Origin: Ceratodon purpureus | Taxonomy: Eukaryota; Streptophyta; Bryopsida; Pseudoditrichales; Ditrichaceae | DNA: 64,000 nt | Assembly (NCBI GenBank): GCA_014871385.1 | Contig: CM026426.1 | Coordinates: 12,987,958-13,051,957, forward strand | Direction of reading: 5' to 3' | Shown: in pieces, positions 5,788 through 41,863 of the stretch | How the letters are laid out: every line of letters begins with the position of its first letter | Numbering within the stretch: the stretch's first letter is position 1 | Notes under the pieces: generated by a model | What the model saw: the letters and a program-made list of their open reading frames with translations, nothing else | The model's database searches: none | What the model was told of the DNA's origin: nothing | Position numbers and translations under genes: made by a program

Positions 5788-5794
5788 TATAAAA
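5788..5794 (+). promoter_or_regulatory. LTR TATA box
   Basis: TATAAAA in a GC-rich setting, about 205 bp upstream of the ATG at 5997 and conserved at 15159 in the right LTR. Confidence 0.65.
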
Positions 5795-8912: not shown

Positions 8913-8922
8913 TGTGATTTTT

Positions 8923-8942: not shown

Positions 8943-9007
8943 TATATGATTTTCTTTCTCCGGATTTCTACGGTTGTCACTAACCCAAGTCAGGTTGTAG
9001 AAAACGC

Positions 9008-13378: not shown

Positions 13379-14767
13379 GAATACCCGGTTGGTACCAGTA
13401 TACAGGATATACCGGACCCCCGCGACCTTCCGGTCGTAGGAGAGACGTCTTCCGTCTACCGAATTCAGGAGGATGAAGGGGAGGACCAGGACCTTCAGCG
13501 GATTAAGAACTATCTCCAGACTCAGAGGTATCCGGAAGGACTGAGTAGGGAGGAGAAAAGTGTGTTCCAGCACCGGGTGGCACCGTACTTTCTAGTCGGA
13601 GGATTACTTTTCAAACTAGGGGCGGATGAAAAACTCCGACGCTGCCTAGAACCCATCTATCGCCGGAAGGTCATCCGGGCTCTGCACGATGGACCGGCCG
13701 GAGGACACTATGCATCCGTCATCACCGTACAGAAGATTCGCGAGGCCGGATACTGGTGGCCATACCTTCACCGTGATGTTCATCAATTTATAAAAGAATG
13801 CGACCCCTGCCAACGGATAGGAGCTCCGGCCGTCCGGCATCACTGGCCGCTAACTCCCATTGTCCCCCTAGCAGCGTTTGAAAAATGGGGAGTGGATTTT
13901 ATTGGGCCAATTCAACCGTTAGGCACTCAGAGGCACCGGTACATCATTTTGGCGACGGACTACGCCACAAAGTGGGTAGAAGCCAGGGCCACCCGGAAAA
14001 ATTATGCCGAGACATCCGCCCGGTTCATATTCGAAAGGATAATGATGCGATTTGGCCATCCGTTGGAGATAGTGAGCGACCGGGGAACACATTTCCTGAA
14101 CGAAGTGGTGGCCGGTCTGACCAACCAGTACGAAGTCAAACACCGGAAGACCACACCGTACAATCCCAAGGCAAATGGATTGACGGAACGTGCCAACGGA
14201 ATAATTTGTAAGATTCTGACCAAGGTAGTTACCTCACATAAGACGGACTGGGACCGGAAACTGACTTCAGCCGTCTATGCGTATAACACGGCACACAAGA
14301 GTACGACCGGACGGACTCCGTATTATCTGGTATACGGACAGGAGGTACTTCAGTCCATCGAGACGGAAGTAGAGACGTTGAGGGTGCTCGCAGCCAACCA
14401 CGGAGATAAAACGGATACCCTCGACCACCGTCTACAGGTCATCGACCAGATGGAGGAAGACCGGATGAAGGCATTGGAAAGGACAAAGGAGGTCCAAGCC
14501 AAAAGGAAGGAAGTGTATGACAAGCGAATCACGATGGATAAAGGAATCGAAGAAGGGGGATTGGTTCTAGTCTATGACAGCCGGTACAAGAATTTTCCGG
14601 GTAAGTTACATACTCGCTGGATGGGACCGTTCCGGGTTGATAAGATTTATTCCAATGGGTCATTACAACTTTCAGATCTAGAAGGCTACCCAATGGACAC
14701 TAGAGTGAATGGATCCCGGGTCAAACTGTACAGACCGGATGACGTTCGCAAGGACGCACACAGGTGA
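13379..14767 (+). CDS. Integrase (pol C-terminal part)
   Basis: It is in frame with the reverse transcriptase but separated by TAA 13376-13378; the first ATG-like codon is at 13562. The N-terminal zinc domain shows H-H-C-C (HDGPAGGHYAS ... CDPCQRIG). The catalytic triad is D in WGVDFIGPI, D in IVSDRGTHF and E in ANGLTERAN. The C-terminal domain has MGPFRVDKIYSNGSLQL, a GPF-type motif, with no chromodomain after it. The stop TGA lies directly before the polypurine tract. A single C-to-T change (CAA to TAA) would explain the break. As written, integrase could only be made by readthrough or from another copy. Confidence 0.9.
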   Translation, partial: EYPVGTSIQDIPDPRDLPVVGETSSVYRIQEDEGEDQDLQRIKNYLQTQRYPEGLSREEKSVFQHRVAPYFLVGGLLFKLGADEKLRRCLEPIYRRKVIRALHDGPAGGHYASVITVQKIREAGYWWPYLHRDVHQFIKECDPCQRIGAPAVRHHWPLTPIVPLAAFEKWGVDFIGPIQPLGTQRHRYIILATDYATKWVEARATRKNYAETSARFIFERIMMRFGHPLEIVSDRGTHFLNEVVAGLTNQYEVKHRKTTPYNPKANGLTERANGIICKILTKVVTSHKTDWDRKLTSAVYAYNTAHKSTTGRTPYYLVYGQEVLQSIETEVETLRVLAANHGDKTDTLDHRLQVIDQMEEDRMKALERTKEVQAKRKEVYDKRITMDKGIEEGGLVLVYDSRYKNFPGKLHTRWMGPFRVDKIYSNGSLQLSDLEGYPMDTRVNGSRVKLYRPDDVRKDAHR

Positions 14768-14778
14768 AAAAGGGGTAA
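14764..14778 (+). promoter_or_regulatory. Polypurine tract
   Basis: GTGAAAAAGGGGTAA lies directly before the right LTR. The other retrotransposon in the window uses a very similar tract (AAAAGGGGGATAA). Confidence 0.8.
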
Positions 14779-15158
14779 TGTGGAAAGTGATTTCCACGGT
14801 TGACACACCGGAATACTAATTCCGGTAGGAAAATGATAAAAAAATTAAAAATTTTATGTTAGAAATACGGAAGTACTAAGCCGATAAGTGAAACAACCGG
14901 TTAAGACGGTTGGCCGAATAAATAAGAGATCGGAAGGTCAGCCGGGTGCGATCCGGTCGTCTGCGCGGGGAGGAGAGGGAGCACCGTCCATATGACAGAA
15001 CCCTGACACTGCAGACTTAAGGATAACCACCAAAAGGTACAACGCACACGGGGAGAATGGCTGCAACCATTAAAACGCCGCCGGTCGCGACCGTCCAATG
15101 ATGAAAGGCTACGACCGTCCGTCATGATGAGCTACGAACGGGTGGGCGTGAGGGCAGG

Positions 15159-15165
15159 TATAAAA
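15159..15165 (+). promoter_or_regulatory. TATA box in the 3' LTR
   Basis: TATAAAA, identical in context to 5788-5794. Confidence 0.65.
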
Positions 15166-15367
15166 GGAGGAAGAACAGCCGTGCTCCTCCTTTCTCTTTG
15201 TCATTTTGTGGCACGCCGGGTCCTTGCGTTCTAAGGCGGAGGGCGCAGTTAGGGTTGGACGGTAGGAGAGAGAAGGTGAGACGGAAGTGTTTCCGTTAGG
15301 CGAGAGATTGTGGTGAGGATCGTGCGTGCAGGTGTTACCGGAGTGACGGAGAGGAGGACTTAGCAGA

Positions 15368-17233
15368 ATGGGTAGAAAGGGGAAGGAACCGGCGGCGGAA
15401 GGACAGTTGTTCAGGGTACAACGGGTAATGCCGTTGATGCCGGCAGACGAGAGGGAGAGGGAGCTCCTCCGGACCGCCTTAGAATCTATGGGTTGTGAGG
15501 TCCTACTGGACAAGGCATGGGGTTGGAAACATGCCCTTCCGGCCCATGAGATCCTCGTCAAGAATCCCAAGAATCGAGGAACCATCCGGGGAGAGCCGGA
15601 TAAGTGGACGGTACAACTCTGGAGGGAGACGTATGGTTTCAAGAACTCTGGAGAGGTCTCGACACCGGAGACCCGGGACTTTGTATGGGGGTATATCAAG
15701 GGGTCCGGAGACCCGAGAGAAGGATGGGAGCTGGAGGACATCACAAATCCGGAGGCCCGGAGAGTCGTAGGGTTTATGAACCCTATTTTCCATCCGGAAA
15801 AGCCCAAACGGATAACCATCAAGTGGGCGTCCGTTTTCATTGGGGCCATGATCGGTGAATTCACGGTAGACTGGGGCGTCATGATGAAGACGATAGTCGA
15901 CCGGCAGGTAGCCAATCTCCGGAAGACCAAGAAGCAGGCCACCTGCCTTCCGTCTTTCCTCATACACCTCTACCGTCACAAGGGGCTGTTGAGTCCTAAG
16001 GAGATCCGGGAGTACGATGAAATCACCAGCATACAGCAGTACGCCGAACCGGAAGAGGTGTTTGATCAGGACGATGATGATGATGTTATCGAGGTCTCCC
16101 CTACGCCGGCTAAGAGACCCCGTCCCAGCCCGGAGAAGGGACAGCCATCCGGATCACCTCGGACTCCCACCCCGGCCAAGCGAACCTTGAACACGGAAGT
16201 CCAAAAGCCCACCGGACCACCGGAGCACACCGGGGACCCGTGCCAGGACTTAATTAACCTATCGGAGCAGGTGTCGACGTATGCTCGGTTCCTACAATCG
16301 ACTAGGCAGGCGGAGGGCTGGTTAGCTAAGGAATTAATGGCCATTACGGAAACGGACCGGTTGGAGGAATGCCTGAATATTCTTCGCAAGCACCGGGACT
16401 TGGCCAGTCTCCAGAACAAGCACATGGACCGGCTAGAGAAGTACCGGGAGAAGATGCTGAAGCTCGAGCAGGAGGTGCTTGATGCCCGGAAGGATTACAG
16501 TGACGCCTGTGACCGGGCAGCCGAAGCCATCCGGTCGGTCGTCGAGATCAAGGCCACTTTAGCCCTTCCGGTGGATGTGGCCAATCAGTGCGCCGTTTAC
16601 CAAGCCTTCTTGACTCGTCAACCGGATCCGACTGTCAAGAAGATTATAAAGTTCATGCACGACCGGACGCAGGTGATGAAGGACACTTGGACGCAGATGA
16701 AGAACCTGGTGGAGATCCTCGGTTCCGCAAAGGCCTGTCCGTCATCAGGGCCACCGGCAGATCGAGAGGAGCCCAGACCACCGTCCCCACCCAGGGAACC
16801 GGCGCCGGTGCCACCTCCAGCCTCTCAGATACGGTCGGCCATCCGGTCAGTCCAATAGGAGGTAGGACATCCGCTGGAGGATCCTATCCCGGATACCTTG
16901 AGCAGTCTGCACACCCTACCCAATTTGGCTGGAGTCGAGACTGTTAACCCCGGAAACATCCCGCTGGGACCGGACCAGAGACCACCACCGGAAGGTTTTA
17001 TGCCCGTACAGGGATCTCCAGAAAAGCTCCAGGTAGATCTCAGCGCAGTTCCGGTGGCGGCACGATCTCCATCCCCGGCGGTTCAAGCAGAACAATCCCG
17101 GAAGTCCAGTGAACCGTCGGCATCTGAGACTCCGGAAGAAGGCCCCTCGTTGAAGAAACTGAAGCGGGTAGAGAAGAAGGAACGGTTGGACGGAACCCGG
17201 CACAGTCCCCGGCTCGATAAGCACAAGGAATAG
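15368..17233 (+). pseudogene. 3' LTR copy of the VNW-family gene, truncated by TAG
   Basis: The same gene as 5997-7856, with residues 1 to about 440 identical. TAG at 16856-16858 stands where the left copy has CAG (7479-7481), ending the protein at 496 residues. The remaining coding sequence (16859-17233) is open in the same frame and still encodes the P/E/S-rich and basic tail. The core and coiled coil survive, so a truncated product is possible. Confidence 0.85.
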
Positions 17234-18290
17234 GGTTTAGGATAGGGACCGGATAAAATGGCAGCGACTAACGATGGGGCTCCAGTGCACCCGGCTGCCA
17301 ATCCGGATAGATAACGGCAGCAACTAGGAATAGAAGGCGGCCACCGGTCCGGGATTCCCGGATCCGAGATCCGGAATTTCTGGATCTCGATGGGCCACTT
17401 GGTCGCTTTAGGAATCGATAGGTTTTAGTATTTAAGCTGGACGTTTTTCCAAGGCCGGGGCCTTGTTTTGTACGCCGTTTTGTTGTTGCAATTGAGAATA
17501 TACTTTTGGATTTGTTGTGTCAACCGGCTGCTGACGGGTCCGTTGCCGTATGGGTTGTTGGTACTATCGTCTTCAGTAGTGTTCCGGAGGAGTGTTGAAG
17601 AGTAGGATAATCTGGAGAGCGCCCGGAGAGACTGGGGAGGTGTCAAGCGTCGAGTGTTGACGGTTTCCAGTCCCGGAAGGAGTCTGTAGGGAAGGAGAGA
17701 CGTATTGCAGCAAGGCTGGTAGTCTCAAGGACACGGAGAGCCGTGTGTACACCGGAATCCGGAAACGGACCGGTCGCTTCCTGTAGATGGGATAAAAGCC
17801 GGATATCCTACTGCGAACCAATCCGGAAGGGAGATAGTATAGTAGAATACCGTGTAACCGTAAGGTGATGTCATTGTAGTATGATTTCCGTATCCATAAC
17901 CGGCACTGAGTAGTTATCCGGACCGGTCCCTAGTCATACGGAAGGATTATTACTCCACTCTCCGGGTGGTAGATAGGAACAGTGGGGTGTCCAGCCACTT
18001 TAAGTCACGGGACGGTGGAAAATCCAGCCACTTGAAAGGATAGACGGATCAGTGGGAACCGGCCACTAGTCTAAAAAGCCGGAAAATAGGAACGAGGCAA
18101 AAACTACCGGATTCGGCCAACCGGTTGTAAGACGGAATACGGTCGGACACCGGTGGTGATTTCCGTTAAAATCTAAAAGGAAGAAAACTATAGGTCTTCG
18201 TGGGAACGAACACGGAGTGGTTTACTTTGGAGGGTGTTTAGTGTCAAATAAGTGCCTTCCGGAGGAATACGGATACCACGTCGTGCTACA
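17234..18290 (+). other. Noncoding 3' part of the 3' LTR
   Basis: It matches 7857-8912. Nothing else is seen. Confidence 0.5.
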
Positions 18291-21200
18291 TGGCCACTTT
18301 GAAGCTCCTTGGAATTGACGCATTTGAAACAATTCACCTCGCTGCTGCAATTGAAATCCAGCCTCCTCAAGATCTAGAACTTCCTGACGAGTGAGATTAG
18401 TTCCAATTTTCACAGGCCACACCATAGGGATGCTCGGCCAATCCATAACCCAATTCTTGGGCCCTCCCTTCACGCAACGGTTGATGTCATCGGGGCAGAA
18501 CCAAAACTCTGCAGGAACAACACGTTTGGTGTGATAGTCTTTCTTCCTCCCTGAATACGTAGGCGCAGGTGTTCCTTATGCTCCCCTGGAAATCTTTGCA
18601 TGGCATTTCTTCCTCGTCTGGGCTTGTAGGGCTTGACATTTTTTGTTGACCGATTCGAAAGGCGAGCAATGTGCCACGTGTTAGGATCACAGTCTGTTTC
18701 CTCTACAGACGTGGTTTGCTAGACACCGCACGTTGGATCCGAAAGTGCTTCCTCAATCCTCGCTCTTCTTGACCTGGTCCCCATGGCAGGTATTGAATAA
18801 TTCACCTTATCTGAGCGATGTGAGTCGTGAGCTGATCCTCGGGGGAGATCAAGCTTCCGCTTCAATGAGCCAAAGATCTCGGCGCCCTCTAGTCCTTTCT
18901 CTTTCGTTAGCACATCGTCCGCTTCTGGATAGGCCTTCATTGCTTCAGCAATCATGACAGGGTCCAAGCTCCTTTGTGCTTGACGAAGTCGGAGCTCTGA
19001 TTTATCACGTCCTTTGCCCCCTCGCCCCCCCTTCAGATACTTCCTGTAGTGCGTGATTTGCATGAAGGCGCGCATCATATCATCCACTGTGGCGTCGTAT
19101 AGGCAGTTCCTAGTGTTACCAGATTGTTGAAGCCACTTGTTGTGTATTGTCTCCGCTAGGTTGCAAGAAGGCATGTCTGCTTGTTCATCAAGCGATAGAT
19201 TCTAATAGAGAAACAGAGAACTGATTCAGTGAATGGAAGAATTTGATACAGGACTTGCATAGGGGCCAAGGTTTAAAGTTAGTTACTTACCAGCTGCATC
19301 GCTCCACCCCATTGCCTGTAGCGGTAGTGCCAGAAGACCATCCAGTCGTTGAGAGCTCGTAACGCAGCGTCCAAGGTGACACACCCTCCAGATTGCCACC
19401 ATCCTCGGATGACGTTGTACATGTCCTCTGCCTCCTCCTGGGTCTTAGTGTCCTTCCACTGCTTGCACAGAGATCTCATTTGCCCTTGATACTCCGGCTT
19501 GATGTGGGCTATGGTCACCCGCTCAAGGCACTTGGTCCAATGAAAAAGACAAGTTCGTTCCCAACCTTCCATCTTGTCATTCACGTTTCCGTTGCCGTAC
19601 ACCTTCCGCACAGAATGCCAGTTCGCGCCTGCACTGTCCGCCATGAATCCTTTGAAGTTCGGCTTCGGATGTCCATTGTCCTCCATCACACTGTTCAGGT
19701 TCTCCCAGAACAAGGTCTGGGCAGTGGCGTCCTCGGACTGCATATCACATAGAGCTATGGTCATGACTCTGCAGTATCTACTATCATATACATGACATGC
19801 CATGGTGCTCCAGTCCTTCACTCGTCTAACATGGTCGAACATGATCCACGAATCTTGAAGGTCTCCCCCGGGCTGCATGCGCTTCACTAGGTCCGTACCA
19901 CTGCCTGGCATATCCACTGACATATTGAAGATGAACACCTTCCCTTTCGTCTGGCCTGGAAAGCGGTTTTCGTGGATGAATTTGAAGGCGTTGTACTCCT
20001 TCAATCGCATGATGTTATCGACTAGACCGTTGTCCTGGCGTAGGAATTTCTTCGTACGTGCAACAAAGTGCCGAATGTTTGCAGCCGACATGGTCTCAAA
20101 CTTGTCCATCACCTGAGCCATGGGTGAACCACAAAGGTGATTCTGCCCTGGAGTCGCTCGAATGAGGTAGTCCGCCAGAAATATCTTGCTCGCTCCCAAA
20201 ACGATGGCAGAGTTCTTCGCATTCGGAGTACGGAGGACTTGCTCGCCTATGCACTCGTATATGAGATCCAAGGTCTCCAGGCAGGTACCATCCGAAACTG
20301 GATGCCGGAGATGGATGGCGGCCCGAGTCATTTCTGGATCTTTGCTGGTGACATGGAAGATCCTCGCAGCACATAATTCTAAATAGACAGGGGGAGTATG
20401 GCAGATTTTGCAAACAAGAGTTGAATTAGGGGGATGCTTCTCTCCTACTAAAATCTGACTTGGGGTAAGCCCAGCCCACTGAGTGGAATTCACCTTCCCT
20501 GGATTCCTATCTATATAATCACAGTTCCAGTTCGGGCACTGAAGATGTCCTGTACAGTTGGACTTACGAAACTTTAAGCCAAAGTCATTCTTAACATTCG
20601 TGGTCATAGTCTTACACCACACGTGCCCGTCGTATTGTTTCCCCATACCATCCAAATCTCCACTGAATGTCGTCGGGATGTTCTCAGGGAGAGGAGGCAA
20701 CTCGAAGATCTTGTCACCATCATAGGTTGCGGGAAGGTACTTCACTTCTACATGCTCGAGGCTAGCAAAATCAATTGACAATATATCTGACCTGCAACCC
20801 CTCCTTCCAGCAGTCTTCTTGATGGCCTCCAAGATGCTACGCGGCTTCCGTGAAGTTGGATGAACAGGGGGACGGCCAGCGGAAACTGATGGCGAACGTA
20901 GGTGAGTCCTACCCGGCAGTGAGCGAGTGGACCCAACAGAGGTCCGTCGTTGAAATGATTCGCACAAGTATCTGCAAGACGGATATCAGGAACCACATCA
21001 TCGTCCGAATCGCTAAGGCAGTGGACGTCGGGAGCACTGCCTTCTATCTTGACCTTCATCAAAGCAGAAACCCGAACAGTGGAAGTAGAACTGGGCGGAG
21101 TTAGCATGACAGTAGACTCTGACATCTGTGAATCCGTGAGGCCGTAGACTTTATATGTACCACTATGTAATGTCCAAACGAAACCCTCTTCCTCTCTGGT

Positions 21201-21428
21201 TTTCACTTGAAGAACAGTCTCACTCAACACTCCATTGTCATCAAAAATCTCCCTTTCAACGTACATTGACCCCATTCGAAAATGAAACCTAAGACTCAGA
21301 AGCTGCTCAGACACCTTCACTGATCCATCTGCACCTAATGGCGCTGTAAACGGGGCCACATGGCCATGGGCACGAATAGATGCCATTCTAAGCGCTTGGT
21401 AGAAGATTGGAGATGTAGAGTCATGCAT
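18291..21428 (-). pseudogene. MULE-like DNA transposase gene, decayed
   Basis: The N-terminal exon starts at 21428 (MHDSTSPIFYQALRM), and the frame changes between 20967 and 20750. Next come a zinc-finger-like CTGHLQCPNWNC (about 20535) and a DDE-type core: WIMFDHV with RYCRVMTIALCDMQSEDA (about 19750), GFMADSAGANWHSV (about 19640) and CLFHWTKCLERV (about 19530). The last resembles the C/H motif of MULE transposases. An 89 bp intron at 19202-19290 (GT on the minus strand after AMQL, acceptor TTAG) joins exon two, with CNLAETIHNKWL. A TAG at 18719-18721 lies in frame, and coding continues (DPNTWHIARLSNRSTK) with further frameshifts near 18570. The 3' end meets the LTR at 18290. The superfamily call rests on pattern only. 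Confidence 0.6.
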
Positions 21429-22029
21429 TGAGAGAGAACTAAAGGAAGAGTGGGATTAAGAAGTGAGGTGATGATGATTACTCCGGAACTCATTTATATT
21501 GGTATCACTTCATGGGCCATCTATTAGGTAAGAGCAACATGGCTGATGACAAATCAAATTAGTAAAGTTGTTAAGCATTGGCGTTAAGCAGTAAGATGGC
21601 TGAGAGAATACTGTTGGCTAGATTAGCATGAAATTCAAATCAATCACTCTTTTTCCATATACAAACACGAGTACCTAGCGCGGTGCAAAGATAATATGTC
21701 TCGCGGATCCAAGAGACAGTTTTACGCCGCAATTTGCAAAGTGTAAAAGAAGGAAAATATAGATATGACTGACATGGAGCTTACAAATTGATCTCCTCAA
21801 CACCTGGACACAGTATTACAAAAAGCCTATGCAACGGCGTAACTGATAAGGAAGAAACGAATGACGGCCACCTACGCCAAAACAGGATTGGTAGCTTTAA
21901 TATTATTAAGAAATAGACTGCCACTTTCCAGTGATACATGTCCTACCTTATAAAATTAAATAAGTGGAAGTGATATAACAAGTAAATCTAAGATCATGGT
22001 CCTAGCAGAGTGTCAATACTCCTCCTAAT
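21429..22029. other. Intergenic, no gene seen
   Basis: AT-rich. It contains a degenerate palindrome relative near 21694-21720 (TCTCGCGGATCCAAGAGA). Confidence 0.4.
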
Positions 22030-22500
22030 TCAGTCCAAGAATCTAACGTGGCGACCTCGCTTGGACGTTTTATTTTTGTGCATATTGGCCCTACTATTAT
22101 TTTGGGATCCAGGGTCCACATCTACAATTGCCGAGCATCCCTTCATGTGAAGCTTGCGTCCTTTATGATGCGGTGTACCACGTAGGAAAGCTCTTGTGTA
22201 CGTTCCCGGTTGAATGATCCCAACATTAGCATAGGCATGCTTCTTCCTGGAATGAGAATCATCGACGTGAGCATGGTCAACGTCACCCGCACTAGCCTCA
22301 ATGCCAGGATGTACCGGGGACTTTAAAATATGAGAATGTAATGAAGTTGGAAGAGGATCAGGAGGAGGTGAGACGTGGCCTTCATCACTAGCTTTCGGAA
22401 TAGGCTCGAAAGGGCCTTCGAAATCGTCAATTGACAACACTAATGCCATGGCATCCTCGACCAAGGGGGAACTAGACCGCTTGGCTTCCTCTGCATCCAT
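22030..22500 (-). CDS. Small charged protein, 156 residues, unknown
   Basis: An uninterrupted frame from MDAEEAKRSS to a basic end (KRGRHVRFLD). It begins acidic (VLSIDDFEGPFEP), then H/D-rich (DVDHAHVDDSHSRKKHAY), then a possibly folded stretch (NVGIIQPGTYTRAFLRGTP) and a lysine/arginine-rich tail. No known domain is seen. Its start is 260 bp from the start of the plus-strand ParB-like/methyltransferase gene, so the two probably share a divergent promoter. It lies between that gene and the transposase gene and may be an accessory protein of the same unit, which is inference. Confidence 0.5.
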   Translation of the reverse strand: MDAEEAKRSSSPLVEDAMALVLSIDDFEGPFEPIPKASDEGHVSPPPDPLPTSLHSHILKSPVHPGIEASAGDVDHAHVDDSHSRKKHAYANVGIIQPGTYTRAFLRGTPHHKGRKLHMKGCSAIVDVDPGSQNNSRANMHKNKTSKRGRHVRFLD

Positions 22501-22760
22501 GGTCAGATATGCAAAAAGGACAACCGCAGCGTCGACGATGAGAGAAGGAACTAATTGGTATGGGTCCTTATATTACCACTGATACGTCATTTGTGGACGG
22601 AGAGGATTTGACATCCACGGAACTGTTCATCTGAACTGTGATTTTAAATATATGTCCACAGGGGTAGAGTATAAGTACTGAAGCGTGGTCTGGAGCACGG
22701 CATTAGAGAGCGCGTAGAGTCAGTTGTTATAGTTGGGAATTTCTCTTCAGCTCTGCACAC
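22501..22760. promoter_or_regulatory. Divergent promoter gap
   Basis: 260 bp between the ATGs of the minus-strand 156-codon gene and the plus-strand ParB-like/methyltransferase gene. It contains AT-rich stretches, but no box I can name firmly. Confidence 0.4.
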
Positions 22761-23739
22761 ATGACGGCAAAAAAGTCAAAAGATGTAGGAATAGAGACGC
22801 GAGTACCTAGGAGTAGCAAAAAGAGAGGCCAGACTTATAAGTTTTCTTGCGGTAAGCAGAAAACTGCTGCAGTGGCGAAAAAGAAAAAAAGAGTGGAAGG
22901 TGATAGCATAGACAGAACTGTTAGGACTCTAATGTATGAGGAAGTCTTTGAACAAGGGACAGAGTCATTTCGATTAGAAAGGGTGGAGGAGGACGCACTT
23001 GAGTTTGAAACACCACGTACTGGGAAAAGTGCGGCGGGAAGGAACCAAGCCGTCTCATCCGGGCCAACACTTGAGTCCAGTCACGTGGGGTCGAAGGATT
23101 ACAACCTAGGGTTTAGGGGAGGAGGAAAGAGGAAGTCGTCTGAGAGTGCCCTCATTGAGAGTGAGGAAGAGGTTTTGGTTGAGGTAAGTAGAGTGTGATC
23201 ATGTTGTCCCTAATCCCATTCTCATGAGTCGCCTTGTGTATAATCATTGTCGTCTTCTTCCCGAGTATAAGGCTGCTTTGGAGGTTGCGACTTTGGATAT
23301 TCTTATTTGTAAACGCAAGTCTTTCTTTACAGCATTTGTTTGTAAGTGAGGAGTTAGAGAGTCGACTGTGTTGAGTTAATGAGAGATGACAGAAGATATA
23401 ACTTGAGACTTGGGTGCGCTTATAACACTCAAAGGGTCAGATAGTAGTGACGAAAAGGAGAGCACTAATCCATCTCAGTCCAATGTGGGTACTCAGGAAA
23501 TGTCGGGGGGAGTGCAAAGCGCGTCAAGAGGGAAGGGGAAGGCGAAGCAGAAGTCAGGCGACGCATCTGCTTCAACTCAGACTGCGAGGGGGTCGTCCGC
23601 AATGGAGGAAGGGGGGACAGAGGAGGTAAGCACTGGAGAGACATTCTTATGAATTTGTTCATTGTTGTTTGAATTATTGTCTGTATCAGTTCGGATTGAG
23701 AAGTTGCTGTTTAGAGTGTCTGTGTGACTGCGCGAGCAG

Positions 23740-24010
23740 TGGGTGGGGGTCCGCGGGTGAGCATTTAAGAGGGTGGGGGCCGCGGGGGGTATAAAAGGGT
23801 GGGGGTACTGAGAGAAGCTCTTTTCATCTCTTTCTTGCTGGAGGAGTCCGCGGTTGTTTGAGAGGGGTTTGGAGAGTATTGTGGTGGTGGGGGGGGGGGG
23901 GGGGGGGGGCAGACGTCGTCGTGAGTATGTGGGTGTGTGGTTCGTGAGTATGAGGGTGTAGGGCGTTTGCGGGGAGGGTTCGCGGGTTTCTTTTAAGGAA
24001 GGGGGTTCTA
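23740..24010 (+). promoter_or_regulatory. G-rich intronic region with TATA box and 21-G run
   Basis: TATAAAA at 23790-23796 in a GGTGGGGG-rich setting, and 21 consecutive Gs at 23889-23909. It lies between the second exon and the ParB-like exon. It could be an internal promoter that yields a transcript starting with the ParB-like domain. Confidence 0.4.
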
Positions 24011-24280
24011 TGTTTCAGGGTTTAGGTAGAGGTTCACTGAGGTTGAGGGTGTAAAGGTTTACTAGTTGTTGTTGTTGAGGGTGTCTTTGGAAGTTAGTTT
24101 GTGAGGGTTGTTGGGGAGTTTCAGGGAGTAAATAAACAGAGAGGGTTTTGTGGGTCTCTTTGGAGTAGTGAATTTCTTGTGTATGACAATGGACGAGCGT
24201 GAGTCTCTGGTTTCTGAGGGTTCGCAGGTAAGAGCGGCCAGAACAAATTAGGTTTAGATCGGAGGGTGGGCAGTAGAAAC

Positions 24281-24304
24281 ACGTGTCTCGGATCCGAGAC
24301 ACGT
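24281..24304. repeat. GGATCC-centred palindrome before a splice acceptor
   Basis: A perfect 24 bp palindrome with core TCTCGGATCCGAGA, ending 5 bp before the acceptor CAG (24310-24312) of the ParB-like exon. Confidence 0.85.
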
Positions 24305-24312
24305 TTCTGCAG

Positions 24313-25007
24313 CTCAGAGAATTAGATGATTTAAGAAAGCGACATTGTTTTCTTGCGCAAACATTCGGGAAACATACTCATACTGTGTGCTCCTATCTGT
24401 ATGGACAGATTACACCTTACCAGCCCGTGGACATGGATGCACCTCCACGCATTGGAGAGGGTGATGTTGATCCTGGCATTCATGTAACCATGGGGAGACT
24501 GTGGCAGAGAAGGAAGGGGAGAGGCCAAGAAGCAGTGACTGAAAGCCTTGACAAACCCGTCTATGAGCTTGATATTCCTTTGTGTCGAATGATTCCAATG
24601 ATAGAGGTTCGCGGCGCATTAGCTCCTGACATAGAGAAGCTGAAATCTGAGTTTGCTCACGGCTACAGACTTGGGTCATTTATTTTCTATGTGGCCACCC
24701 GAAGTTATACAATGGAGACCCAGGAGGTCAGTGAAGAGCAGCGAGGCTCGTGGGATCCGATTTGGAGGGAGGCTGAGAAGACATTTGAAGAGAAGTTGAA
24801 GAGAACACCTGGTTTGGAGAAGTACTCGAATAAGATGTTTTACATCTGGGATGGTAATCACCGACACAAGGCATGGAGTAGGGTCATCACAGACTTTCAT
24901 TCCCAATATCCGAATCCAGCGGTTTATCCAAGCCCAAAGACACATATAATATGTGTCACAGAGGAGAACAAGCAACGACTTCTGCATGCGATGACACAGT
25001 GGAACAA
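24313..25007 (+). other. Exon encoding the ParB/sulfiredoxin-like domain
   Basis: Bounded by TTTCTGCAG and the donor GTAAGT. It carries IPLCRMIPM, an alpha-helical LAPDIEKLKSEFAHG, and WDGNHRHKAW. In ParB-type proteins the last motif forms the nucleotide-binding and catalytic site. The minus-strand paralog at 41.3-41.9 kb has IPLCRMLPM and VCDGNHRL at matching places, which supports the domain as the conserved part of the family. Confidence 0.7.
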
Positions 25008-25644
25008 GTAAGTTCACTTCTAGGACTGCCTTTTATGGAAAGTATTGGTTAATGTGAAGTACTAATCATCGGATTATTCAATATCAGGAAGAACGAATAC
25101 GATCATGTGAACCAACATTGGACTCACGAGCTCCGAAGAGTCATACAGTTTGGTAGTATGCCCTTCGACCAGTTGAGAACTCTCATCTCTGAACGCGATT
25201 ATGAGAACAGTCTGACAGAGTGGAACCGTGTCACAAAGAATAAGAAGTGGTACCATCTAACGGCGGATGCATTTTGCAACTTACTGTATGAGGTATTGTA
25301 TGAAAACACTTCCATGTCTTCTAAAAGTTGAATAGAATGGCATTGGAGTACCCATGGACTTACTGAATATCTCTCGTTTGCAGAGAGAGATTATCAATGC
25401 ACAAGAAGCAGCAATGAAGATATACGAGGACTCCTTAATAACTCACGGTGAAAAGAGACAGGGAGACAACAACATTCTAATTGAACGTGCAAATGCAGCG
25501 ATAAAGACTTGCAAGACGCATCTGCACATTGATATGGAACGCTTATAGGCAATAGCGGATCCAAAGAATGGATACGGATTCATCAGAGACGTAGGGATGT
25601 CTTTTTGTTCTTCTCTATTTTTCTTTAGTTTTCTAATGTTATTT

Positions 25645-26090
25645 TGGCTACTTTTGACCCTCCGAAAGGGTCTCTCGGATCCGAGGGACCCTTTTGGAGG
25701 GTCAAAATAGACCCCTTTATGAGCTGCAATATCATCATATTGCAGCACATTTGGGGGGCATTTTAACGTCTCTCGGATCCGAGAGACGTTAAAAGGCCCC
25801 CTAAATGTGCTGCAATATGATGATATTGCAGCACATAAAGGGGTCATTAAAACGTCTCTCGGATCCGAGAGACGTTTTAGGGCCCCTTAATAGAGCTAAT
25901 ATATCATCATATATTAGCTCTATTGGGGGGGCCTTTAGCGTCTCTCGGATCCGAGAGACGTTAAAGGGCCCCCTGAAAGAGCTAATATATCTTGATATAT
26001 TAGCTCATACAGGGGGCCCTAAAACGTCTCTCGGATCCGAGAGACGTTTTTAGGCCCCCTAAAAAAGCTAATTTATCATCATAATTGCAA
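25645..26090. repeat. Array of alternating palindromes, 86 bp period, inside an intron
   Basis: Five GC-type palindromes share the core CTCTCGGATCCGAG, with centres at 25678, 25775, 25861, 25947 and 26033. Spacing is 97 bp, then 86, 86 and 86. Between them are AT-type palindromes of two sorts: GCTGCAATAT/ATATTGCAGC (25732, 25816) and GCTAATATAT/ATATATTAGC (25905, 25985). GGGCCCC-like runs separate the units. The whole array lies in intron 25591-26172 of the ParB-like/methyltransferase gene. Confidence 0.9.
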
Positions 26091-26436
26091 CATTTTCCTA
26101 AAATATGACTCTGTTTATGGTTTCCTTCGAGTTTCATGACGTTTTGACACAAAATTCACTGATGTCTTGTAGATTGAAGCCCATTTCAGCACTTTCAGAA
26201 ACAAAACAGAGATGAATCTTGAGAAGCTCCAACTGTTTGCAACTGCCAAAGTACCGGCGAAATAGAAGGAGAGATGGGTACACTGGTGGAATATGAGCAA
26301 AGAATCACGTGAAATATATAACTTCCCAAAGTATCCCCCCTCAAGATCAGCCCTTCGTCCATGGGTGGAAGTTGCAGCTATCTGGGCAGGAGTAAGTTCA
26401 TTTCATTTATCATATATTTTTGCTTATTTTGAGATA

Positions 26437-26470
26437 CCAATATATGTCTTTCAGATCCGAAAGACATATT
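26437..26470. repeat. Degenerate GGATCC-type palindrome in an intron
   Basis: ATATGTCTTTC and GAAAGACATAT flank AGATCC. It is a decayed member of the same palindrome family. Confidence 0.7.
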
Positions 26471-26596
26471 TCAATGCAAAGATTTTTGTAAAAAATCTTA
26501 ATGGAAGGTGATAGTCTTACAATCAGATGACGAAACTTAGCTATAACGGTGAATCTATTCACATGGGCTGACAGTGAACATCCTATTTCCTTGCAG

Positions 26597-28150
26597 CTTG
26601 AAGAAGAAACTGGGATTCAATATGCCGAAATTCTTGAAGACGAGGGGATCGTTATACCACCTCAGGCACCTGCAATGGGTATTGTATCGATTGATAAGTT
26701 CGTTAGCACAGAAGCTCACAAACTTTGGAAGAAGGGGTTCTTAGAATTTCTTGGAAGGTATGGCGGGTTTGTGAAGTCCAAGCCTTTCAATGACCAAAAA
26801 GACACTAAGCTGGCTGTGAACCGGATGATTGTAAGGTATTTTTACAGGGAGCTTCTCAGGAAAGATGCCATTACAGTTGACAACATTCCCATTCGGTTCT
26901 CCAAGTGGCTTGATACCTCCAGCCCCGACTGTATCTTCAAAAGGCGCTATGGACGAAGAGGGAATTTCCCCTTCAGGAAGTAGCATGCCCTCTTAGCGAT
27001 CGCAGGGAGTCTCTATTCTGCCCAGCCAGGTCCTTAGTCAGACATACTACTCTATCAAGTCCAAGGCCTATCCCAATCATCCACCAGATGTTCGGCTGAT
27101 CAATAAGAGTGCACAGCAGATTATAGACAACATCAGCAACAACAATGCAAGATCTGTAAACGATTGGAAAGCGGTCGATCGTTTCGTGGGTGGGCATTAG
27201 TCGCACAGGCGTCGTTAGTACAAGGGTGAAATTCAGGATGTCAAAGCAGTTGACCTTATCGTCTTTGACGTTCCAGAGAATTTGCTTGTGCCCTTCTTTG
27301 ATGATCATGACATTCTAGAGTGGAATGTATTGCCCATTGATACAGATCCGAATTCCACGAAGTCAGAGTCTCCCTGGATCCATAAACACTTGGAGTGGGC
27401 CAATGAGTGGATCGCTGACGATGGAGTAGTCCTTGTGTTTTATCCTGACAGTAAGTTCATTCTGTCGGAGTTGGAGGGCTGGTCGCAGTGGGCGGGATTC
27501 AAGGTGCAACACAAGTGGATTGTCATGAACGACCTTAAGACGAACAGCCCTGATTTTCCAGATATACAGACCACGGTCACTAACACCATGCTGTTCGCGC
27601 GAGAAGAAAATGCCGCTTTAGGCATTCCTGCTTCTCGATTCCATTTCTATGAGCAATCTGACCTTGAGGCTAAGGGCGTTGACATGGTTAATCTAGGTTT
27701 CCTGGTTAACAAGATAGACCAGGATAACTGGACAGTGAGAGAAGTCATTGGTGGTTCATGGCGTGGTCCACGTGAGAAGTCAGAAGACCTTTTCATTGGT
27801 TTGTTGGACCTTCTAAGTCAAGAGGAGGACATAGTTATGGACCTCACCACATCTACAGGTAAACTTAAATTTCGTCACACTTGTTAGTTTCATGGTTTCC
27901 AGAATTCTCCTCTACATCTTACTTCCTATTTCTGTTCCTTTTCCAGGCGCCTCTATCAAGGCCTGCAAATATATGCACAGGCACCTCATTGCTCTCGAGG
28001 AGGACCTGCATCTTCACGATGAGATTCTGCTTCCACTTGTTCCGGATGCTGTCGAGGATGATTCGCCGGCCCCTACTCCTCCTCCAAAGAAACGTGGACC
28101 ATCTAAACACGCTGAAGAGCCTCCTTCAAAGAAAGCTCCTAGACGCTCCT
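26597..28150 (+). other. Exons encoding the helical linker and methyltransferase-like domain
   Basis: Exon 26597-27858 runs from LEEETGIQYAE to DLTTSTG and contains the frameshift near 26980. The intron 27859-27946 splits the glycine of motif I (G|GC). Exon 27947-28150 carries ASIKACKYMHRHLIALEED and a P/K-rich tail. Family consensus would be DPPY/W for motif IV and DPFxGSG for motif I. Here they read DVPE and DLTTSTG, so catalysis is doubtful even if the fold is kept. Confidence 0.65.
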
Positions 28151-28261
28151 GTGAGTGATCATTGTTTTAACGCTAAATATTTTGGACGTTTTCTATTTCG
28201 AATTTTGAATCATCTTTTCAGACTCTTTCTAATTATATATTTTTTTGCAGATATAAAGTGA

Positions 28262-28740
28262 GCGCACTGCTGCTCACGGTTCTCAAGTCAGCACCACCTA
28301 TGCCACTCTTCTATAGACTATATCATACTTATACTTTAGCGGATAATATCCACTATCTACGTATGTTTCATTCAGTTAAGACAGATTACATTTTGAGTTG
28401 CGTTACTCTGTCGGACAGGACTTTCTCTATGGCCTAGCCAGAACAGGAGTGTCACATTCCATTTTGTATACCCATACTTCTATGAATATATAATATTCTG
28501 GCTTTCGTTTTATGCGGCTGAGTTTGTGTTCTTCCATTACCTCAAATTTAAATTTGTTCCTGCAACTTGCCCTAGTTCTTTTCAATGCATGATTTGATAA
28601 AATAGTGTTAATTCTTTTCTATTTATGATGGCATATCATTTATTACAAATTAGAATCTACATAGAAACTTTTAGTACTTGATTCCATTTCTTTACATTTC
28701 CTACTTTCATTAATTGTTACACGTCATCTACAAGTCCTTG
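28262..28740. other. 3' flank of the fusion gene, no gene seen
   Basis: AT-rich and probably includes the 3' UTR. The next feature is the palindrome at 28741. Confidence 0.4.
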
Positions 28741-28770
28741 AAAACGTGTCTCGGATCCGATACACGTTTT
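28741..28770. repeat. GGATCC-centred palindrome
   Basis: AAAACGTGTCTCGGATCC is followed by its near-perfect complement, with one mismatch. Confidence 0.85.
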
Positions 28771-28863
28771 CAAGGCTATCATTTTCTCTCCGTTTATCTC
28801 CCACCCTACCCTTACCCTTCCTCCCCAACCTCTTGAATCCCTCCCCTCCCACCCCCTTACCCA

Positions 28864-28905
28864 GCCGAGACAACGTGTCTCGGATCCGAGACACGTTGTC
28901 TCGGC
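28864..28905. repeat. Perfect 42 bp palindrome
   Basis: The arm GCCGAGACAACGTGTCTCGG is mirrored exactly around the GGATCC centre. A shorter relative (GCCGAGACA CGA TGTCTCGGC) lies at 29001-29021. Confidence 0.9.
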
Positions 28906-29039
28906 TTTTTTATTTTCTTAAAAAACAAAACCCCCCCTCTGCCCTCCCCTACCCTCCTCCTACCCTTCCCCCTAAACCCCTCCTTTACCCTTCCCCCCCA
29001 GCCGAGACACGATGTCTCGGCTATATTTCTTATTAAAAA

Positions 29040-29512
29040 TTCATTAAGAAAATAAAACCCCTAACCCCCTCCCCCCTTTCTCGCTCCCTTCCCCCTGCCC
29101 CTCCCCCCTTTCCCTCTCCCTTCCCCCTGCCCCTCCCCCCTTTCCCTCTCCCTTCCCTCTTCCCCCTGCCCCTCTCCCCTTTCCTTCTCCCTCCCCCTCC
29201 TTCTCCCACCCCCTCCTTCTCCCACCCCCTCCTTCTCCCTCCCCCTCCTTCTCCCTCCCCACCCCCCTCCCTCCCCCACCCCCTCCCTCTCCTCCCCCAC
29301 CCCCTCCCTCTCCTCCCCCACCCCCCTCCCTCTCCTCCCCCACCCCCCTCCCTCTCCTCCCCCACCCCCCTCCCTCTCCTCCCCCACCCCCCTCCCTCTC
29401 CTCCCCACCCCCCTCCCTCTCCTCCCTTACCTCCCTCCCTCCCTCCCTCCCTCCCTCCCCTCCCTCCCTCCCTCCCCTCCCTCCCTCCCTCCCTCCCTCC
29501 CTCCCTCTTCAT
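29040..29512. repeat. Polypyrimidine low-complexity tract
   Basis: About 470 bp of CCCTCC/CTCTCCTCCCC units on the plus strand, almost free of purines. The G/E/R-rich frames on the minus strand here are translations of the repeat, not genes. Confidence 0.9.
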
Positions 29513-29680
29513 GGGTGTCTCGGATCCGAGGGACTGTGTCTTGGATCCGAGACACGTCCTTCCCCTCCCCTCTAACCCCTAACCCAGGTGCGCCGCCACC
29601 CTCCCCTCCCTCACTGACTCTCGGATCCGAGAGCCAGAAAAAGAGGGAGTGGGTTTCTCTCCCCACTCCCTCTTTCACTC
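29513..29680. repeat. Cluster of GGATCC palindromes and a hairpin
   Basis: Palindrome relatives occur at about 29514-29530, 29537-29553 and 29617-29634. A hairpin AAAGAGGGAGTGGG/CCCACTCCCTCTTT lies at about 29640-29674. Confidence 0.75.
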
Positions 29681-30202
29681 ACTAACTTCTAAGATTAGTT
29701 GTGTTTTAGTATGTGTTTTGTGTTATAAGGTTTTGTGTGTTAGTATGTTTTGTTTTCTATGTTTTCTCTAGGGTTTTTGCATACATTCGGTATCGGGTTT
29801 TTGCGTAGATATTGTGTGGGGTTCTAGTCCAGTGATTTTGTCCAAGGCTTTAGTCTCGGGTTCTAGCATAGATTTGGTATCGGGTTTTGGTATTTTCATT
29901 TTCTTTTGGGTTTCGGTCTCGGGTTTTGACAAACTCTTTTGTCATCATTTGCCGCGGATTACTGTACAAGTGGTCATGCTCCTCATTTTTTGGTAGTTGT
30001 TAATTGTCAGTTTCTTCGATTTGTTTTAAGGTTCTAATTTCGGATTTTCCAGATATACTCTTCTGGGTTTCGGTTCCCTTGCTCATATGCTCATCTATGA
30101 CACGGTTTCTGACCAGCGTATACTATTTTGCAGCTGATCAGTTTTCTCGTACCCCTTCATCAACCCCAGGGATCCAATACTCGCGAGGTACTTGCATAGC
30201 TA
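29681..30202. other. T/G-rich degenerate repeats, no gene seen
   Basis: Irregular reiteration of TCGGGTTTT/TCGGGTTCT-like words. The same style of T-rich sequence resumes at 38254, so this is the left flank into which the next retrotransposon inserted. Confidence 0.5.
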
Positions 30203-30888
30203 TGTTAAAGGGTGATTTAGCTCACCCTTAGAAAGCTAATTTACTGTCCAAGCAAAAATGAAAACCCTCAAAATTCTAGTGCCCACCTAACTAATTCTGC
30301 TCAACACCATTCTGCCCCTGAACAGCACCAGATTCTAACCATACTGCCCTGATCTACTGCTCCATTAATGCAAGAACCCACAAAGCAAATCTGACTACAG
30401 ACCCTAGCATTCAATGTATACACTCAATCTGCTCAAAAGAGTCCTTGTTTTCCCATTAATCACTGCCTCATACAATCAGTCCTGCCCTATCAATCCTGCT
30501 CCTACTACCATCATCCCAACCTTCATAGCCTAAACTCCAAGCCTACACTCTGAAAACACACAAGAGAGCTCACTTGAGAGCCCTCAGCCCAAGAGGGAGA
30601 GAGAGAGAGTGAGAGCCACAGCCCCCTTCCCTACAACCCCATCCAAAACCCTAGCCGTCACCGTAGCCGCCACCAGCCGCCACCAGCCCTAACCCTGGCC
30701 GCCGTCATCCAACAGCAGTTTTCATCCGTCAGCAGTTTTCATCCGTTTGGCAGTTTTCATCCAGGACAGAGTTACTGCTGTCCAGCGCAGTAACTGGCAG
30801 TTTACTGTTGCAGTTAACAGCAGTTTTACTGCCCCCTACAGTTTACTGTTCCTGCTCTTTTAACCTACCAGTAAAAATCCCGTTAACA
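30203..30888 (-). repeat. 3' LTR of the Gag-protease element
   Basis: It starts TGTTAA and ends TTAACA and has the same length as the right copy. It ends with reiterated CAGTTTTCATCC/CAGTTTACTG words. Confidence 0.93.
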
Positions 30889-37567: not shown

Positions 37568-38253
37568 TGTTAAAGGGTGATTTAGCTCACCCTTAGAAAG
37601 CTAATTTACTGTCCAAGCAAAAATGAAAACCCTCAAAATTCTAGTGCCCACCTAACTAATTCTGCTCAACACCATTCTGCCCCTGAACAGCACCAGATTC
37701 TAACCATACTGCCCTGATCTACTGCTCCATTAATGCAAGAACCCACAAAGCAAATCTGACTACAGACCCTAGCATTCAATGTATACACTCAATCTGCTCA
37801 AAAGAGTCCTTGTTTTCCCATTAATCACTGCCTCATACAATCAGTCCTGCCCTATCAATCCTGCTCCTACTACCATCATCCCAACCTTCATAGCCTAAAC
37901 TCCAAGCCTACACTCTGAAAACACACAAGAGAGCTCACTTGAGAGCCCTCAGCCCAAGAGGGAGAGAGAGAGAGTGAGAGCCACAGCCCCCTTCCCTACA
38001 ACCCCATCCAAAACCCTAGCCGTCACCGTAGCCGCCACCAGCCGCCACCAGCCCTAACCCTGGCCGCCGTCATCCAACAGCAGTTTTCATCCGTCAGCAG
38101 TTTTCATCCGTTTGGCAGTTTTCATCCAGGACAGAGTTACTGCTGTCCAGCGCAGTAACTGGCAGTTTACTGTTGCAGTTAACAGCAGTTTTACTGCCCC
38201 CTACAGTTTACTGTTCCTGCTCTTTTAACCTACCAGTAAAAATCCCGTTAACA
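37568..38253 (-). repeat. 5' LTR of the Gag-protease element
   Basis: 686 bp, TGTTAA...TTAACA, apparently identical to the left copy over most of its length. Confidence 0.93.
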
Positions 38254-39371: not shown

Positions 39372-39944
39372 ATTTTACCTTGACTTTAGTTAGTTAGCTT
39401 CTTCGTATGTACATCCAGTTTTATTTGTACTTATACTGGATTGTATTATTCAAGTTTCAATATACTTTGTTACGTATACCCGATGTATAGGCAGTTAAAT
39501 TTTGTGCATTTTTCCATCCTATCTATAAAGTATATAATTTACCGGATACGTATATCTATACATGTCTTCGAATTAAAAAAATCCAATATTAACGATCCCG
39601 GGACCAGCCTAAACGGCCATTGAATCCCAAAGATTCCCTCTAGATACTTTTAGATTCCGCGGTAATAGGCGCCTCTTATTATTTTTTCAGAAAAAAACGA
39701 AAATTTTCAAAAAAATTCAAAAACTGCCCGATGAACAGTATTCTGCTCGCTGCTCGCTGCTCACAAGATTGCATTCCTCCATGATCATATGCCATCTACG
39801 CTATCAATACAACCAGTAAGTAAGAGTACACATGACTGAGTGTATACATGCACGTCACTGACTGTACATGACTGTCTTACAATAATATCAACATGAGACA
39901 ATTAAAAGAGAAACACCATTACGTCCCTGAATGAATTAACTCAC
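39372..39944. other. No gene seen
   Basis: AT-rich. It holds the region where the intron and later exons of the minus-strand ParB-like paralog should follow, but no such exons are visible. Confidence 0.4.
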
Positions 39945-41863
39945 CCCAACCCACCATACTCCTTTAGCTAGAAACAAATGTAGCTTCTCTTCTGTGATGG
40001 TAGACGGTGGAACTCTCCTTGCCTCACGAGTAGCAGCGGATGAGTTGAAATACTCTAGCCACTTGATCTTGAAGCTAGTAGAAGCTTTAGCTATAACAGT
40101 GACTTGTAGTTTCTCAAGATTGAGCTCTGGTGTTATAGAATTAAGTGTGTAGTGCCTCTCGATCTACAAAGATTCCAAAATTAAAGTTAGATGATGATCT
40201 GTTCTGGTAATTAGTATCGTACGATAATTCAGTGATAATATACCTCCACTAATTTTGGGTTCTTATACAAACCTCTTGCAACCAACCATCCACAAGATTT
40301 GGGTTTGCCACAGCAAGAAGTTCCCCAATCTTCTGATACAAGGCTTCATGTCTTTTTTCCGCAGCAGCCTTCATTGCCATAGTTCTCTGAAGTGGGGTAG
40401 TATCCCCATCCGATTGTTCTATAAGAACTCGAATGCCTTCGTCTGCGGCCTGGCTGATTTCGTACTGTAGAGAGTAAAACATCTGAAGTATGAGATTGGT
40501 AAATTTGGAAAGATATGTATCAGTAGATAAAGAGGAATGATTCAAAGCTCAAAAAGAAAGAAATCCATTGTTATTTCACATAGCATACCATGTATACTGA
40601 ATTAACACAAGCACTGTGATGTTTCATTGTATGGGCATCTATGACAGACATAATCTGATGCTACATGGTAGGGGCATCGAGCTAACCATAGTACTTAATA
40701 TTCCAGACGATGAAGATGATTTTTTCAATACCAATCTACAATGAGAACTCAATGCTAAAATGAGAACTGAATGCTGCAAACCCAATCGACATTCACTATA
40801 TGCAGTCATTGCACGAGATTGCTAATTTTTAAACTGCGTAGTGCTATCAATAAGTCTTAACAAAGAACAATGTGACCGAGCATCAGAAGTACTTGGAATA
40901 TGAATGAAGTGAACACGCTTTGAGTCAAAGAATACCACGTATTCTTCTTAGATCGCTGGCAACGCCTAAAGTTAGACAGTGATAAGACATCCTTGAATTT
41001 CTCAAGCTCCATAAGCCCATACTTCCTCACTCTGAAGAGTGTATGAACGAGGTTTGTCTTCACATGTGAATCCTCTGTGTGTCTGAAACAAATAATTAAT
41101 TAAAATTAATGAACACCACATGTTATGAATGAAATAATTCTCATTCAATCTACTATACTTAATGAAGAAGTGAATAATACTTCCTTGTTTGTGTCATGCA
41201 TAACTTGCATGACAAGTCCAATTTTCCCCACGATGTTTAGCAAAATGGAGTCTACCATGTAATGCCAGGTGGAATCATCTTTTTGAAGACAGTCAATGTG
41301 ATTTAACCCGGCCTAGAGCCTGTGATTTCCATCACACACAAAAAACATCATGTTAGTAAACCCTGACAATTCGGGAACCGAGGACAAGTACTTGTTGAAA
41401 TACTCATTCTTGGAGTTCCACAGAGGGCCCCACTTCTCCTTCTCTTCTGATGAAATCTCCTTGCTCTTGCCATCTTCATCCATATAGAAACACAAAAGAC
41501 TGAAGCGCCGTCACGATAGCCACGAACAAATTCTTATTCAAGCTTGGACAAGTCACTCCCAAGAGTAGGTTTGACCATGGGCATGGGCAACATCCTGCAT
41601 AGAGGTATAGAAAACCTTGAGCAAGACAATGGCTGAAATCTCAAGGAAGCAATCGTTGCAACTGAGTTCAATTTCTGCCGAATTCGAATGGCATCTTCAT
41701 CTAATCTCAAATGCTCATCCTCTGGTGCTTCTTCGTCACCATCACCATCGAAGTCAATCATATCGGTTTCCTGCCCTACTTGTAACAATGGTTCGGCTGA
41801 TGAAGTTGTAGCATCCTTCTCGACCTCATCCTGTTCAAGCAACGCAGTGAAGGATACCAACAT
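39945..41863 (-). pseudogene. Decayed ParB-like paralog lacking the methyltransferase part
   Basis: It matches four exons of the plus-strand fusion gene in order. 41863-41313 holds IPLCRMLPM, LE*EFVRGY and CDGNHRL. 41080-40857 holds HTLFRVRKYGLMELEKFKD. 40466-40249 holds EISQAADEGIRVL ... LLAVANPN. 40165-39945 holds IERHYTLNS ... LNLEKLQVTVIAKA, matching MNLEKLQLFATAKV. The last exon begins at the same intron position and phase as in the fusion gene and ends at a GT donor (39944), but no methyltransferase exon follows. Stops are TAA 41534 and TAG 41313, with a frameshift between. The identity is low enough to indicate separate subfamilies, not a recent duplication. Confidence 0.65.

Follow-up and report, generated by a model that had tools for sequence, protein, structure and literature searches.

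A broken ParB–methyltransferase fusion gene in Ceratodon purpureus, probably from a transposon

Among the described systems closest to the gene considered here is the giant transposon Sola1-1_Ec32 of Ectocarpus, which carries a 1,104-aa ParB–methyltransferase gene on the strand opposite its transposase; the same article cites further cases from green and red algae (PMC12477816, the accessible part of the text). The architecture, which a sequence-only reading of the present DNA did not know from eukaryotes, is thus already in print. In Bacillus cereus, Bce_0392 joins a ParB-type domain to an amino-methylase, and its ParB part nicks DNA (PMC5512222, accessible part). The bdelloid rotifer methyltransferase N4CMT differs from the family described below, having an SPPY motif and a chromodomain and marking transposons for its host (PMC8885841, accessible part).

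Here, we analyse a locus within a 64,000-nucleotide stretch of Ceratodon purpureus contig CM026426.1 (the whole stretch being referred to as the window; Table 1), which holds a ParB-type and methylase-like gene that is broken and probably comes from a transposon. The likeness to Sola1-1_Ec32 is that of one long protein (1,044 aa in an unbroken relative, L001) which unites a ParB-like domain with an N4/N6 methyltransferase domain and whose gene lies on the strand opposite a neighbour that is a transposase in Ectocarpus and transposase-like in the window; the differences are that this neighbour is unclassified in the window and that no element ends were found, the two being compared by description (PMC12477816, accessible part). 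In contrast to Bce_0392 as far as it is described in the accessible part of PMC5512222, the window family is eukaryotic and intron-containing, has a long middle region and gave no sequence match in phage records or, for the methylase part, in plasmid records. The motif strings quoted in the sequence-only reading were all recovered in place and on the right strand: IPLCRMIPM and WDGNHRHKAW both fall within the ParB-type exon, DLIVFDVPENL, REKSEDLFIGLLDLLS and DIVMDLTTST lie inside the exon ending at 27,858, and HLIALEED is encoded by exon I, downstream of which comes the TGA stop at 28,259.

Table 1. Features of the locus and its surroundings, in window coordinates
Feature	Position	Strand	Basis
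Divergent transposase-like gene; exons ~22,500-22,030, 21,455-19,279, 19,201-18,293; last frame open up to LTR element edge	18293..22500	-	
Presumed divergent promoter: TATAA at 22,670 (+) and 22,572-22,568 (-); ATGs at 22,761 (+) and 22,500 (-)	22500..22761		presumed function
Exon with ParB/sulfiredoxin-type domain (IPLCRM ... WDGNHR)	24409..25007	+	splice sites, 25 homologues, model pLDDT 78, ParB/Srx matches
Exon D, helical middle	25088..25292	+	splice sites; 40% identity to L001
Exon E, TAG at 25,546 inside	25384..25590	+	splice sites; L001 match
Palindrome array, 86-bp unit x 4.2 copies, core TCTCGGATCCGAGA, in intron between exons E and F	25721..26083		
Exon F, TAG at 26,263 inside	26173..26391	+	splice sites; 59% identity to L001
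Exon G, containing a TAG at 26,981; reduced linker, with the frame changing close to the exon end	26597..27020 (end approximate)	+	
Methyltransferase-like domain with DVPE (motif-IV-like), EKS (motif-X-like) and the beginning of DLTTSTG (motif-I-like); contains TAGs at 27,198 and 27,216	27021..27858 (start approximate)	+	
Exon I: GASIKACKYMHRHLIALEED, completing the motif I region, then a basic tail	27947..28150	+	splice sites
Final exon, TGA stop	28251..28261	+	splice sites
Five more GTCTCGGATCCGAGAC-like palindromes, 3' flank	28748..29633		
Second, broken copy of the ParB-type part, for which no methylase part turned up	39942..41850	-	sequence comparison

The gene belongs to a multi-copy eukaryotic family encoding one long protein, composed of a ParB/sulfiredoxin-type domain, a helical middle, a charged linker and a beta-class methyltransferase-like domain. 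Homologue searches place the fusion far beyond chance, the ParB-type exon returning 25 proteins at E<=1, with E values ranging from 2e-154 to 1e-22, the joined core one protein (P0001, E 5e-84) and the methylase-exon profile 32 proteins; P0001 and P0004 have their longest contig, of 5,395 nt, in common. The spliced frame of L001 is 41% identical to the window protein, its exons all lie on one strand, and intron position and phase agree with the window copy at all five introns compared; its final splice has no clean GT donor as joined, so that its last residues are uncertain. Since L001 keeps the full series of exons in sequence, with matching introns, the two halves are parts of a single gene, and the possibility, raised in the sequence-only reading, that they are two separate genes is rejected. 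The single intron-containing gene of that reading is supported; a working gene is not, given the five TAGs, linker loss and frame change described below, which that reading overlooked. Its upstream exons (22,761 to ~24,400) found no counterpart in L001, whose ParB-type exon begins with its own ATG. When viral contigs were scanned, neither P0001 nor the ParB exon, the transposase-like ORF or alignment A2 brought up a relative, and Rfam and tRNA scans found nothing.

The first domain is predicted to have an alpha+beta ParB/Srx fold, which is supported by its structural model (pLDDT 78): ParB, Noc or sulfiredoxin chains occupy 30 of Foldseek's first 31 rows, with a best E of only 0.036. Pfam ParBc (PF02195) matches none of the 25 members at E<=10. 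The Arg of the pocket motif DGNHR is present in at least 90% of rows. In sulfiredoxin, the catalytic Cys lies within a G-C-H-R motif; this Cys is absent here, with Asn at that place in 25/25 rows.

For the second domain, a beta-class methyltransferase-type fold is likewise supported by modelling, with a match to CcrM (E 3e-5), although the model is weak; it was built on P0029, a sequence reading through an intron. The structural matches proposed as a check in the sequence-only reading were found for both domains, while the Pfam check fell short of the gathering score for both, N6_N4_Mtase scoring 22.3 bits (E 1.4e-4) against a cut-off of 26.7. CcrM, M1.HpyAVI and YhdJ, the best fold matches, share with the window family the placing of motif IV ahead of X and I, as noted in the sequence-only reading; alignment with YhdJ places DPPY opposite DVPE and DIVLDPFAG opposite DIVMDLTAS. 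In hhalign, alignment A5 met YhdJ in the expected register at a probability of only 1.1% (E 0.048; control PrmA 0.3%), and PDB sequence searches gave nothing credible (best hits: ribosomal protein, 0.042; TBP poly-Q stretch, 0.0093; designed protein, 0.033). Unlike those three enzymes, the family lacks the motif IV aromatic: DPPY is replaced by a DVPE-like motif, with an aromatic residue in 0/31 alignable rows (35 examined) and, by a pairwise alignment count, Glu in 28 and Lys in 3 of the 31 at the fourth position. In motif I, Ser takes the place of the first Gly in 16/17 aligned rows, and P0032 has GTG there. The beta-class assignment accordingly holds for fold and motif order and fails for the catalytic [DNS]PP[YFW]; judged from these alignments, the methylase half seems to be without its usual catalytic residue. 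The fusion may plausibly go back to an ancient acquisition from a phage or prokaryote, for which no donor emerged; tblastn found no match to the ParB-type domain in phage records, nor to the methylase part in phage and plasmid records.

Divergently from this gene runs a neighbour which we take, from its motifs, to be a candidate transposase; it had no family match, NCBIfam and PHROGs included, and on its left side the locus adjoins an LTR element. We read the locus, with a probability of about 0.65, as a decayed copy of the multi-copy eukaryotic family, carried as an accessory gene by a large DNA transposon and with a methylase half that is not an ordinary writer. Membership in a transposon is suggested because a second copy lies 13 kb away (making two in the window), because the transposase-like neighbour is divergent and because the layout is that of Sola1-1_Ec32 (PMC12477816, accessible part). 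As no terminal repeats were found in the two flanks searched, we infer the transposon rather than observe it. The ParB–methylase gene would most likely be an accessory gene beside the divergent transposase-like gene; its ParB-type domain may bind nucleotide through the DGNHR pocket and keep the protein on the element's DNA, and its methyltransferase-like domain, with the motif-I-like pocket kept, may serve to bind DNA or SAM, perhaps together with a partner, and not as an ordinary 6mA/4mC writer. A binding module is expected rather than a writer because the DPPY aromatic is lost in every alignable row.

The locus is also rich in copies of a palindrome, GTCTCGGATCCGAGAC, with 14 sites in the window at up to 3 mismatches (0.16 expected), 11 of them at the locus, and four beside the L001 gene (0.01 expected). 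The likelier account, and the one to which we lean quite firmly, is that these are unrelated MITE- or satellite-like repeats which landed near these genes by chance: they sit in an intron and the 3' flank in the window versus the 5' flank in L001, whose matching intron is 86 bp long and free of them, they form tandem arrays, and once neighbouring palindromes are collapsed 4/7 clusters are at the locus, an interval that was chosen after the sites had been seen. Against chance stand the excess over expectation and a 16-bp core that is shared by two loci encoding proteins of 41% identity, although unit length and arms differ. A putative binding site for the ParB-type protein is less likely. The fuller proposal, that the transposon has a ParB-and-site system in which the ParB-type domain would load as a nucleotide-dependent clamp on parS-like GTCTCGGATCCGAGAC arrays in and beside the element, with the altered methyltransferase-like domain serving to mark, count or pair copies, we consider improbable. 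It could draw on the shared core, on the concentration of sites at the gene, on a weak site that precedes the second ParB-type copy by ~230 bp and on arms that vary yet stay paired in alignment A8, whose 17 rows (13 from the window, four from L001) were picked for core and palindromy, so that covariation counts lean towards pairing; A8 omits a GGATCC palindrome at 9,152 and adds one at 26,456. The differing site places and the few sites left after collapsing speak against it. A viral contig scan for the palindrome gave 40 stretches with one site apiece, and literature searches for TCTCGGATCCGAGA or CTCGGATCCGAG returned, by title, no paper on such repeats.

Whether the protein might instead be a catalytically active amino-methyltransferase whose motif IV is unusual, used by the transposon to place 6mA or 4mC on its own DNA in the way suggested for the Ectocarpus protein, bears on the methylase half only. 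The prediction of 4mC or 6mA for that relative (PMC12477816, accessible part), the retained motif-I-like and motif-X-like segments and the GTG of P0032 lend it some weight; we nevertheless find it doubtful, as the motif IV aromatic is missing from 31/31 aligned rows and bdelloid N4CMT is inactive once the Ser and Tyr of SPPY are changed to Ala (PMC8885841, accessible part). It is rather unlikely that the genes form an ordinary multi-copy family owned by the host, outside any transposon and with an unrelated transposase-like neighbour: the absence of terminal repeats from the two flanks searched and the lack of a transposase in the 4.7 kb of L001 would agree with this, but the decayed copies, the nearby second copy, the fragments across many contigs and the transposon relatives in print (PMC12477816, accessible part) do not.

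The window copy is broken and not an intact gene, because it has five in-frame TAG codons, a linker shortened to ~31 residues (162 in L001, 145 in P0001) and a frame change near 27,000-27,030. Opposite the TAGs, L001 has Leu at 25,546 and Phe at 26,263, while among five rows of relatives 27,198 is matched by Gln in three and 27,216 by a different residue in each; decay from CAG to TAG alone is rejected, since for four of the five TAGs other residues occur in the relatives, 26,981 having failed to align. Selective constraint would have preceded the decay, to judge by pN/pS against L001 (0.38/0.85, 0.45/0.73 and 0.43/0.84, with synonymous sites saturated). An intact gene in a genome reading TAG as glutamine, to which the all-TAG internal stops (5/5) and the terminal TGA might point, is extremely improbable given the Leu, Phe and mixed residues opposite the TAGs, window ORFs of 568 to 934 aa without TAG, a gypsy frame in the window broken by TAG, TGA and TAA alike, and a shortened linker with frame change that no code accounts for.

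Previously named in algal transposons, the fusion of ParB and methyltransferase domains forms a eukaryotic family of some size, in which at least one unbroken member, L001, could be expressed as a 1,044-aa protein. The absence of the aromatic catalytic residue from all alignable rows casts doubt on any writing of 6mA or 4mC by this branch. Were the palindrome a binding site, the locus would represent a partition-like DNA–protein system inside a eukaryotic mobile element.

The window has a G+C content of 46.5%, contains both Ty3/gypsy-type elements and intron-containing genes, and is eukaryotic. Within it lies a gene in which a ParB/sulfiredoxin-type domain is joined to a beta-class methyltransferase-like (methylase) domain. 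The sequence-only reading had proposed this fusion, and all the strings that it quoted are found in the window where it had placed them, although its gene model had read past five in-frame TAG codons and a frame change near 27,000-27,030. Our model of this copy was built from splice sites and reading frames, and the rebuilt exons, together with the other features of the window, are collected in the table. With five TAG codons in the rebuilt frames and the frame change, what survives in the window resembles a pseudogene.

Features of the window, with coordinates in nucleotides
Feature	Position	Strand	Remarks
LTR element	5411-18292		LTRs 98.8% identical, unusually long (3.5 kb)
Long ORF in the LTRs of this element	5976-7856; copy 15347-16858		No known family
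ORF related to the LTR-borne ORF at 5976-7856	1475-3217		33% identity
Divergent transposase-like gene	18,293-22,500	-	Motif reading
ParB-type/methylase gene, rebuilt exons	24,409-25,007; 25,088-25,292; 25,384-25,590; 26,173-26,391; 26,597-~27,020; ~27,021-27,858; 27,947-28,150; 28,251-28,261	+	Ends in TGA
Direct repeats	30202-30888 / 37567-38253		687 bp, 100% identical; flank gypsy-like ORFs (- strand); probably a very recent insertion
Second ParB-type copy	39942-41850	-	Broken; another subfamily
ORF pair	47002-47880 / 52450-53676	-	45% mutual identity over 195 aa; no confident match in Pfam
Inverted repeat	55662-56265 / 57850-58453		~600 bp, 98% identical

The main evidence on the intact form of the gene comes from L001 (CADCWO010000058.1), the single locus matched in genome_contigs by an alignment of the ParB-type exon. 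L001 is a 4,691-bp contig that has been binned in a cyanobacterial MAG; because its introns are of spliceosomal type, we read it as probably a eukaryotic contaminant within the genome record of that name. Its spliced exons join into a single open frame 1,044 aa long, although the last few residues are uncertain. The window and L001 share 347 of 850 aligned residues over exons C to F (the ParB-type exon and a helical middle), exon G and the methylase part, and the five introns compared all agree in both position and phase. The shared introns and the single frame of L001 therefore place the ParB-type and methylase halves in one gene, as the sequence-only reading had held. The linker that separates exon G from the methylase domain differs in length, with about 31 residues in the window copy versus 162 in L001 and 145 in the protein relative P0001. 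In the three parts compared between the window and L001, pN/pS is 0.38/0.85, 0.45/0.73 and 0.43/0.84, with synonymous sites saturated, which suggests that the protein was formerly under constraint.

The number of relatives reaching E<=1 in three protein searches was 1, 25 and 32, the last figure coming from a search that scored only the 7,995 candidates with the most words in common. These relatives come from Logan, ENA and JGI data, and none of them carries a precomputed Pfam domain. For two of them, P0001 and P0004, the longest contig is 5,395 nt in both cases, which is consistent with the two parts being linked in another species; no further pair of ParB-exon and methylase-exon matches has its longest contig in common. 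No relatives were found in IMG/VR or in phage records, and plasmid records searched with the methylase part gave no match. The window itself holds a second ParB-type copy, whose nearest relatives are P0024 and P0026 and at which no methylase part was found.

The gene under study forms a divergent pair with its neighbour on the minus strand, a TATAA standing 91 bp upstream of the plus-strand ATG and another about 70 bp upstream of the minus-strand ATG. The neighbour contains ADSAG, a C-x2-H 29 residues past the Asp and, in a later exon, CNLAETIHN, and from these motifs we read it as a putative transposase-like gene; none of the family libraries recognises it. Its frame is open up to the edge of the LTR element and has no evident continuation beyond it. 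The left end may have been lost to this element, but no target duplication was seen at it. A search of two flanks found no terminal repeats.

A palindrome, GTCTCGGATCCGAGAC, recurs at both loci. At up to 3 mismatches it has 14 sites in the window (0.16 expected), 11 of which lie within 24,285-29,633, around the gene, and 4 sites in L001 (0.01 expected), all in the first 360 bp (23-360). The window sites include an array of period 86 placed within the E-F intron, and the L001 sites form one of period 106 upstream of the ATG. With neighbouring sites collapsed, 4 of 7 clusters fall at the locus (p 0.004 versus a uniform spread, for an interval set afterwards). The outer arms vary among copies with their pairing kept, 39 cells being changed on both sides versus 13.8 in shuffles, a count made on sites that had been picked for palindromy. 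One weak site (3 mismatches), at 42,078, stands about 230 bp upstream of the second ParB-type copy. On these sequence patterns, the palindrome is an attractive, unproven candidate for a binding site of the ParB-type protein; that its copies are unrelated palindromic repeats is the likelier explanation.

PMC12477816, on the transposable elements of Ectocarpus, reports a giant transposon with a ParB-methyltransferase gene on the strand opposite its transposase, and PMC5512222 describes bacterial ParB-methylase proteins as well as ParB domains that act as nucleases and nucleotidases. From these descriptions, the ParB-methylase kind is therefore already known. What this analysis adds is the unbroken relative with its conserved introns, the unusual motif IV of the methylase domain, which is DVPE-like in place of the catalytic DPPY, and the palindrome. 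The family and its folds are real, the architecture is known and the window copy is broken; the change in motif IV and the palindrome are the points that can be put to the test.
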